Below, piece by piece: positions 14,301-40,822 of a stretch of DNA of 64,000 bases. The DNA comes from Apostichopus japonicus (lineage: Eukaryota > Echinodermata > Holothuroidea > Aspidochirotida > Stichopodidae). The position numbers and the translations under genes are program-made. The notes beneath the pieces were generated by a model. The model ran no database searches and had not been told where the DNA came from. It saw nothing but the letters and a program-made list of their open reading frames with translations. The stretch's first letter is position 1. Each line of letters begins with the position of its first letter. Location of the stretch: positions 8,652,999-8,716,998 of the forward strand of contig NC_092565.1 in NCBI RefSeq assembly GCF_037975245.1. The letters run 5' to 3'.

Positions 14301-17300
14301 TAATATTCGGCATAACTTTTTTTCTAATAGGGTTGTGAATGAGTGGAATAGTTTGCCTGAGAAAGTTGTACTTGCAAGTAGTGTCAATGGGTTTAAGAAT
14401 GCTTTGGACAGGCACTTTAAGCATTGTAATCGGGTCTGAGTGTTTGTGTCTTCAGTTTTTTTTTCCCTCTCTTTATAGGGTCCTTGATGGGGACTTAAGT
14501 GTCCCTCCTGATCCTTTTTTCTACTAAACTAAACTAACTCAGCAGGGAGCTGAGCAACAATTCTTTTGAAAATTTAACTTTTTTAACTAATTTAACTTCA
14601 ATTAGACGCATCCAGATTGTATGTTACGTGTGGTAGTTTATTGAGGCTTTTACATATACGCTGATAGTCGAAGAGCTTAAAATCATTAAAAGACAATAAA
14701 AATTGCTTTAAAGCCTGCACTTCTCTAGGAAATTTAATTACAAATCAGCGAGCCTATCTTGACTGCTGATAAGACGAGTGATTGATGAGGCAGAGTTGAG
14801 GGGGATGTGGGTGGGGAGGGATGATGGGAGAGGATGGGCCGCGAGGGATCTTTACTAAAGTCATACTGTCCTTCGCGTAAGACAGGTATCTAAGCTAAAT
14901 ATAAAGATATTGTTTCATTACACATACTAACGGGAGAATGGATGTGTGATTGAGTTGTATATCCAACAGAAGAGATTCTAGTTGGAGCGAGGCTGTTGCT
15001 GCAAAGATCAGAGGTTTTTTGTTTGTTTCACTGGTAACCCCTTAATAGGGCCATAAGAAACTTACACATTATGCAATTAGTCGCCTGCGTACCTTGTCAT
15101 GCACGTTCGTCCCGTGGTTGCCATGGTAAGGTCCAATTTGGTACGAATACACTGTAACCAGTCTTTCATATACATTTTTCGACAAGAGTCGACGCAAATG
15201 TTCTCTACTGATTTCAAACATCAAAACTGCAGGTTGATCGCTCGTATGAAATCAATATTGGAAACGTGCGGAATGTGTTTAATTTTGGGATTTAAGAGAC
15301 GTATCTGTAGTCTATATTGATGTTAGGTTGTTCTATAGAGGACATTACACTGTTGCGTCGGCTAGTACATGTAAAAACAGCCGTTAGTCACTTTTAAATG
15401 CAAACAGACCGGTGAGTTTGGCGGTGTAAACCGTCAGATCAAAACATGGTCTCATGCCTGCTAGTTTTCATCATATGAAAGAAAATACTCATGATTGAAA
15501 AGAAACACATAAACAACTGAACATCAAAACCTGACAATCAATTGTTTGAGCTTGAAAAGGATTAGCTCGGTACGGTAATTAAAATGTGTTCTTGATGAAC
15601 TCTTTATATATCCAACTCAACATAAACACATCCCTGAAAGAAGTTGCCTGAAAGAAGTTAGTGCAAAATGTTGGGTTTTTTCAACTATAGTGAAGGATAA
15701 AATATTTATGTTAAATTAATTAATTTGCAGAGATAGAGATGGAAGTCCATCGACCCATTGTCATTACAAATGCTCCATTCTATATAGGTACTTACGTGTT
15801 GATATAGGCCAATCCTAATGATTGAAAACAGTTGACGTGGTAAATCGCATACATTTATAATAATTGGTTCTACATCTGCACTCAAAACTGAGAATTGACC
15901 ACAGAATAGATTGCTGACCCTTAGTCCGTATACCTCGGAAGACGCCAATCCATTTATCAAACCCAACAAAAGTAGTCTCTGTTCTACACTGTTTTACTTT
16001 CTACACTTACTGGTAGACATGATAATAAACGCATCTGTTTACTGTTTACTAATTTTCGAACATTGCTTCCGTTCGGGTGATATCCTGTTTGGTGATTGTC
16101 ATAAGTAGATATGTTACGTATAGTGTCACTAGAATCTGGACAAGCCCCCCCCCCCACCCCAAGTCTCCCTCCCCTATCCTTCTTCGTCAAGCATGAGAAG
16201 TTGTTACTATGCCTACATGTAATCAAGAAGTTTGCTTGACTAGAGACTAACCATGCATATGATATCGAAGTGAATGGTTGCTACCGCAATATGCATGGAC
16301 ACGTGATAGTCAGGTCGAGGTAAACGGAACACGATGGTCGTTAGGTGTGCCGTTTCGCCATTGTATGCACATTACATCCGAGTCGGATACGGCTCATAAT
16401 TTCCAAGAATTGTACAAATTCATTTCCCAATATTCCGGAGTTTATATCACCATAGAGTTGACTTATATGGAATTTTTAATGTTTCGCTGTTAAATCTGAA
16501 CCGGATTCTCCATCAAACTTCGACTACTCAGTAAAAATGTTCATAATATTAACCTATAACGATGAATGTATGCTCTGACCAATCAACGGTGGACAAAAGC
16601 CTATCGTCGTCTCTTGCCTACGATAAAACCACTCAAAATACTAACATATTCAAGTCATGGAAACAAAGATATGTTTACCTATTTTTCCTTTGTTCTGCCT
16701 GACACCGGGATCAAAGTAAGCTGCATAAGACAATGGTATGCTAATTTGGCCATGATATATATATATATATATATATATATATATATATATATATATATAT
16801 ATATGTATATTATAAAGCAAATACACGTGTGCTCCTAAGGAAATATTATTAGATTAAAAGCAGGACCTTCGTTGGCAATACTTGGCAGTGGAAAGTACAA
16901 AATGTAACACCATAAATATGACGTTAGACAAGTACGAGGGGCACTGGTGGTATTAGTACCAAATAAACCATGACTTTATAGGAAGTGGCTTAAGGAGCAA
17001 AGAATAGGAAGAACGATACATATAACTTTGTGGAACTGGTTATATAGTTGTTTAGGGGTCCCAAGTCTTGGCCGGTGATGTGAGACTGAATATGAGAGAT
17101 CCAATCGATTTCTGGAATACATGATTATATACGCATATGATTACTATTTACTAATTTTCGAAAATTGGTCCGTTGGTGAGATATCTTGTTTGGTACGTGG
17201 TTGTCATTAGTCATATCTTACGTATGGTGCTGTAACAATGGCCATGGTGAAGAATCGTTCAAAATAATCTTTATTTGTACGGGCTACACTCATTGCTTGT

Positions 17301-40822: not shown

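Follow-up and report, generated by a model that had tools for sequence, protein, structure and literature searches.

The window analyzed here, a stretch of 64,000 nucleotides from the genome of Apostichopus japonicus, contains a tandem segmental duplication. BLAST comparison of the whole window with itself identified two units, unit A (1240..19323) and unit B (19329..42407), which lie head to tail with a junction within 6 bases. As the window contains no N letters, there is no scaffold gap between them. The main blocks shared by the two units are 93-98% identical, with the exception of one 75-base block that is only 84% identical. Each unit also carries specific insertions of its own, and those of unit A include two reverse-transcriptase open frames. 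A stretch of about 1.1 kb is repeated in tandem within unit B (38012-39162 and 39042-40277; 94-95% identical) and is single in unit A. Elsewhere in the window, positions 46160-50685 hold a retrotransposon-like element. Its two 168-base ends are identical, and its single open frame of 1253 codons contains domains for reverse transcriptase, RNase H, and integrase; given the identical ends and the intact frame, this is probably a recent insertion. Short-chain-dehydrogenase-like open frames (61172-61684 and 63555-63932) lie beside an array of approximately 51-base units (62289-62734), and an open frame for a BRF2/TFIIB-like transcription factor is found on the minus strand at 58141-59433.

Each unit harbors one complete three-exon gene for a rhodopsin-family (class A) receptor on the minus strand, designated here gene A and gene B. 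Exon 1 of gene A (17454..17774), an open frame with a Pfam 7tm_1 match at E 5.8e-9, encodes the N-terminus, TM1, TM2, ECL1, and the first half of TM3; we refer to exons of this kind as heads, and to this one as A17. Exon 2 (9330..9465) continues with the remainder of TM3, the SRY motif, ICL2, and the start of TM4, and exon 3 (8328..8863), an open frame placed by the splice model, runs from TM4 to the C-terminus with the stop included. In gene B, the distal head (B40; 40502..40822) is an open frame whose protein is 94% identical to the gene A head, and exons 2 (30996..31131) and 3 (29403..29938) were placed with the splice model and the genome search. Both gene models comprise 993 bases and 330 residues, with intron 1 in phase 0 after Gln-His and intron 2 in phase 1 within TM4. 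The acceptor position chosen for exon 2 is supported by a relative on contig C14 because both introns of that gene match in position and phase (ATTTGCATACAG is kept in exon 2).

The first-pass annotation of this DNA had described three open first exons of 107 codons on the minus strand, the third at 34079-34399, and only two sets of exons 2 and 3. All of this was confirmed: the three heads are open, and the last two codons of each, Gln-His, are followed in phase 0 by a GTAAGT donor; the two tails belong to gene A and gene B as given above. The proposal that the heads at 17454 and 40502 are interchangeable cassettes of one gene was rejected, as they are copies in two duplicated units that each have a tail. 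They are therefore one exon in two duplicate copies, and the real excess is a single head.

The B40 product belongs to class A over the whole body of the protein. It matched Pfam 7tm_1 (PF00001) at E 5.7e-39 over residues 43-301, corresponding to profile positions 2-260 of 260. The Pfam families matched by the B40 model at E up to 10, five in all, comprise the rhodopsin-type, olfactory (7tm_4), and nematode serpentine kinds, and the insect Gr family is not among the five. Insect Grs are a separate family of seven-transmembrane chemoreceptors, distinct from rhodopsin-family GPCRs. The best matches of the B40 product among solved structures were galanin receptor 1 (E 6.7e-24), the nociceptin receptor (4.9e-23), and the KiSS-1 receptor (1.5e-22), with somatostatin receptors also among the nearest; the likeness to galanin and kisspeptin receptors thus denotes nearest solved structures only. 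In contrast to the galanin/nociceptin/kisspeptin/somatostatin receptor group, gene B lacks the cysteine pair linking TM3 and ECL2 and has SRY in place of DRY, at positions that we take to correspond to the conserved ones on the basis of familiar class A numbering and motifs. By eye, no cysteine is present at the start of TM3 in any of the three heads or in ECL2 of the tails, and one cysteine sits near the end of TM4 in the tails. This pair is usual in class A GPCRs and not universal.

The third open head of the window, B34 (34079..34399, minus strand; Pfam 7tm_1 E 9.1e-8), is a proximal, diverged alternative head that sits within the first intron of gene B. It has the same length (107 codons), phase 0 end, and GTAAGT donor as B40, and joined to exons 2 and 3 it gives an open frame of 993 bases and 330 amino acids, exactly as long as that of B40. 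The two heads are 61% identical over residues 6-107, with no indel and no stop. They differ at 44 of 107 residues, most densely in the extracellular N-terminus (19/28) and least in TM2 (6/24) and ECL1 (3/12). B34 retains its ATG and donor, an Asn-Asp-Thr sequon, and the TM1 and TM2 core motifs. Like B40 it has no TM3 cysteine by eye, and the tail has no ECL2 cysteine, so B34 and the tail fit each other. When about 500 bases on each side of B34 and B40 were compared, no alignment stood above shuffled sequence (156 and 58 of 200 shuffles reached the score), and the detected likeness is therefore confined to the coding exon.

B34 lies in a segment found only in unit B (32237..36609) and absent from unit A by self-BLAST. 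In unit A the flanks of the missing segment join at a shared 7-base word (14591-14597), with no visible replacement. A deletion from unit A at this microhomology is most likely, and an insertion into unit B is the other possible course. No donor copy of B34 was present among the matches listed for the sea cucumber's own genome (best 150 of 157 candidates scored). The segment also contains a dispersed repeat of about 250 bases (33085..33333), identified by genome search and present at 89-92% identity in at least 39 further places; this repeat accounted for 39 of the 40 places scored for the query 32240-34060, the rest of which was unmatched among those 40 of 3318 first-look candidates.

Two decayed heads had also been proposed on the minus strand, at 15796-15975 in unit A and 37801-37980 in unit B, which correspond to each other as duplicate copies. 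We rejected them. Their alignment scores lie inside those of shuffled sequence, with 12-22% of 300 shuffles reaching the DNA score and 30-99.7% the protein score, and Pfam gave no match at E up to 10. They do carry, by eye, an in-frame Asn-Gly-Leu and a Gln-His before GTAAGT. An anchored scan was made of 448 GTRAG donors from the window and nine fetched stretches, using four queries that included B40, B34, and the C14 head. These three queries scored 537-549, the nonquery A17 scored 523, and two further true heads that were not queries scored 185 and 168. The two stretches ranked 24 and 25, at 32 and 31, behind 17 other sites that are not heads; a head copy broken by frameshifts would be underscored in such a scan. 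The earlier picture of several cassettes accompanied by decayed ones thus does not hold, as gene A is simply a normal gene with one head. Gene B, which has B40, B34, and one tail, does match the proposal of alternative N-terminal halves on a common body.

To place these exons in the genome, searches were run over the whole 671.6-Mb, 35-contig assembly, in which the window lies on contig C5. The B40 head query gave 39 listed matches (best 150 of 220 candidates scored), of which three came from the window and the next was C14 at 34% identity. The B34 query gave 22 listed matches (best 150 of 157 scored), again three from the window and then C14. With the exon 3 query (all 115 candidates scored) 39 matches were obtained, led by the two window copies and followed by C14 at 35%. 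The exon 2 query (all 21 candidates scored) gave only four: the two window copies, C14 at 60%, and C2 at 53%. A genome search for further cassettes had been suggested; among the matches listed, close heads number only the three in the window, against two each for exon 2 and exon 3. The 34079 exon is diverged and open, as had been described, and no tail of its own was listed at the similarity expected. Neither in the window nor in the assembly did the searches bring up another exon 2 or exon 3 diverged to the degree of B34, and a private tail, which would be expected at near 60% identity or more, should have appeared among the matches.

Relatives with the same type of gene have one head per tail. 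The C14 gene (head 1493392, exon 2 1491616, exon 3 1490157) resembles genes A and B in its three exons, identical intron positions and phases, and lack of the cysteine pair, and differs in sequence (identity of 34% for the head, 60% for exon 2, and 35-37% for exon 3) and in having a single head of its own in the 20 kb read. A gene on C18 has one of each exon (8 kb read), as do three genes on C13, whose whole spans were read. The ratio of heads to tails is therefore 1:1 in the five relatives examined versus two heads to one tail in unit B. The C13 genes (C13:16470001-16520000 = L034-L038; L039-L042; L021-L024) span about 26-29 kb from head to exon 2, and in each the head stops in TM3 at a phase-0 donor (GTGAGT or GTAAGT), the end points lying only a few codons apart. 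They share the exon structure and, by eye, have cysteines at both TM3 and ECL2, unlike the window lineage and C14. A relative on C2 was left out of the head count: beside one exon 2 and one exon 3, its sole weak head-like stretch in 30 kb has E 0.029 at 23% identity, and a further match at E 0.073 contains a stop.

The divergence between B34 and B40 carries a clear mark of selection. Of the 321 bases, 112 are changed, distributed 29/26/57 over the three codon positions. The dN is 0.29 and the dS is 2.4 (NG86) or 1.3 (LWL85), giving dN/dS values of 0.12 and 0.22, respectively, with a bootstrap 95% range for the LWL85 value of 0.12-0.37 (384 of 500 replicates giving a value). Neutral simulations (n = 2000) were run to the observed nucleotide distance, and none ended with 44 or fewer amino acid changes (mean, 65; minimum, 54); 131 ended without a stop, before counting indels. 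These data demonstrate that B34 is a homologous exon under long and strong constraint, beyond what chance would give, and that the alternative first exons have been kept by selection over the whole of the B34/B40 divergence, which is not to say in the most recent past specifically. With the C14 relative as outgroup, 8 of 106 aligned head sites are changed uniquely in B34 and 6 uniquely in B40, and all three heads differ at 30. B34 is thus not accelerated relative to B40, and together with the constraint this indicates that it has spent no large part of its history in decay. Between the two ordinary heads, A17 and B40, there are 9 base differences (1/5/3 over the three codon positions), and the dN/dS is about 0.6-0.8 on these 9 changes only; since the A/B duplication they show no clear constraint, on small numbers. 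Exons 2 and 3 of genes A and B gave values of about 0.1-0.4, also on small numbers.

The main rival to a gene with two heads is that B34 was orphaned recently: it would be what remains of a former neighboring full gene, or of an abandoned head duplication, whose tail was lost recently, and it would be unused now. We consider this unlikely, though it carries real weight. If B34 came from a second full gene with recent tail loss, the selection signal would be identical, and the exon would remain open simply because too little time has passed since the loss. Assuming 0.10 frameshifts per substitution, a neutral exon is still open with a probability of 0.33 after 2.5% change and 0.10 after 5%, roughly the age of the A/B duplication. 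As a neutral exon could stay open that long, B34 may be open now without being in use. The absence of the B34 segment from gene A, with nothing visible in its stead, agrees with this explanation and counts against the use of two heads. However, selection must then have ended only recently, as none of the 2000 neutral runs arrives at so little amino acid change. B34 has evolved no faster than B40, and its start codon, donor, sequon, and core motifs are retained. In addition, remnants of exons 2 and 3 were not found on the minus strand at 32-41 kb with E up to 10; the one match there lies inside the B34 head itself (E 3.1-3.5). Two plus-strand matches in this range (E 0.63 and 5.7) look like chance.

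A very unlikely explanation is that units A and B are uncollapsed alleles placed in series by the assembler, with B34 as a presence/absence variant of one gene. An identity of 93-98% with several insertions does fall within the range between alleles of very heterozygous marine animals. However, assembly artefacts of this kind usually sit across gaps, whereas the two units adjoin within 6 bases, in exact head-to-tail order, in a window without N letters. Marginally less probable again is a cassette or poison exon that is included after B40, shifts the frame, and lowers receptor output with no second receptor made, for although a pyrimidine-rich stretch ending in CAG lies by eye 11 bases before the B34 ATG, and the added length of 11 + 321 bases would not preserve the reading frame, constraint on the 107-codon protein sequence would not be expected of such an exon.

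We therefore return to the reading in which gene B is a small gene with multiple variable first exons, encoding a class A peptide-receptor-like GPCR, and in which alternative head use is a present function. We hold this as moderately probable. The arrangement itself is directly observed, with B40 (40822-40502) and B34 (34399-34079) in series, in the same splice phase 0, upstream of one common body of exons 2 and 3 (31131/29938). Each head would most likely have its own transcription start at a putative promoter and would be spliced directly to exon 2 at 31131, a junction that is predicted in the case of B34. A transcript begun at B40 would skip B34. Since inclusion of B34 after B40 would shift the frame, a productive transcript with the B34 head is expected to start at this exon or close to it. 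Common to the two predicted products would be the second part of TM3 with the SRY motif, intracellular loops 2 and 3, and TM4-TM7, so that most of the G-protein side would be held constant. The B40 and B34 products probably differ in ligand or ligand affinity, as the positions of the differences suggest; expression of B34, like the separate promoters, is presumed.

Comparable layouts are known from other systems. The insect gustatory receptor locus Gr39a (and also Gr28b) is described as having long alternative N-terminal exons and common C-terminal exons, with alternative splicing hypothesized, and the Gr39a N-terminal cassettes as gained and lost between species (PMC3011837). Gr39a resembles gene B in placing alternative N-terminal exons before common C-terminal exons, and differs in having several heads rather than two. 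Tandem variable first exons before common exons, each said to have its own promoter, are likewise described for UGT1 (PMC3325998), and a variable-first-exon layout has been likened to that of the protocadherins (PMC1885805). UGT1 and other variable-first-exon clusters resemble gene B in their tandem first exons before common exons, but they encode enzymes and adhesion proteins and have many cassettes, whereas gene B has two heads with putative promoters of their own. No case of head swapping in a rhodopsin-family GPCR was met in a limited search of titles and abstract openings among open-licence papers in PubMed Central. Head swapping at Gr39a, which is likewise a proposal, would lie in a receptor family unrelated to that of gene B.

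Our results raise the possibility that a rhodopsin-family peptide receptor swaps its ligand side by means of two long-maintained first exons on one constant G-protein-coupling body, with cassettes gained or lost between recent copies. We put this forward tentatively, with somewhat less than even confidence. If true, gene B would provide a natural test of class A receptor modularity, in which an exon border within TM3 would let evolution exchange the part of the pocket formed by the N-terminus, TM1, TM2, and ECL1 and leave most of the G-protein side as it is.
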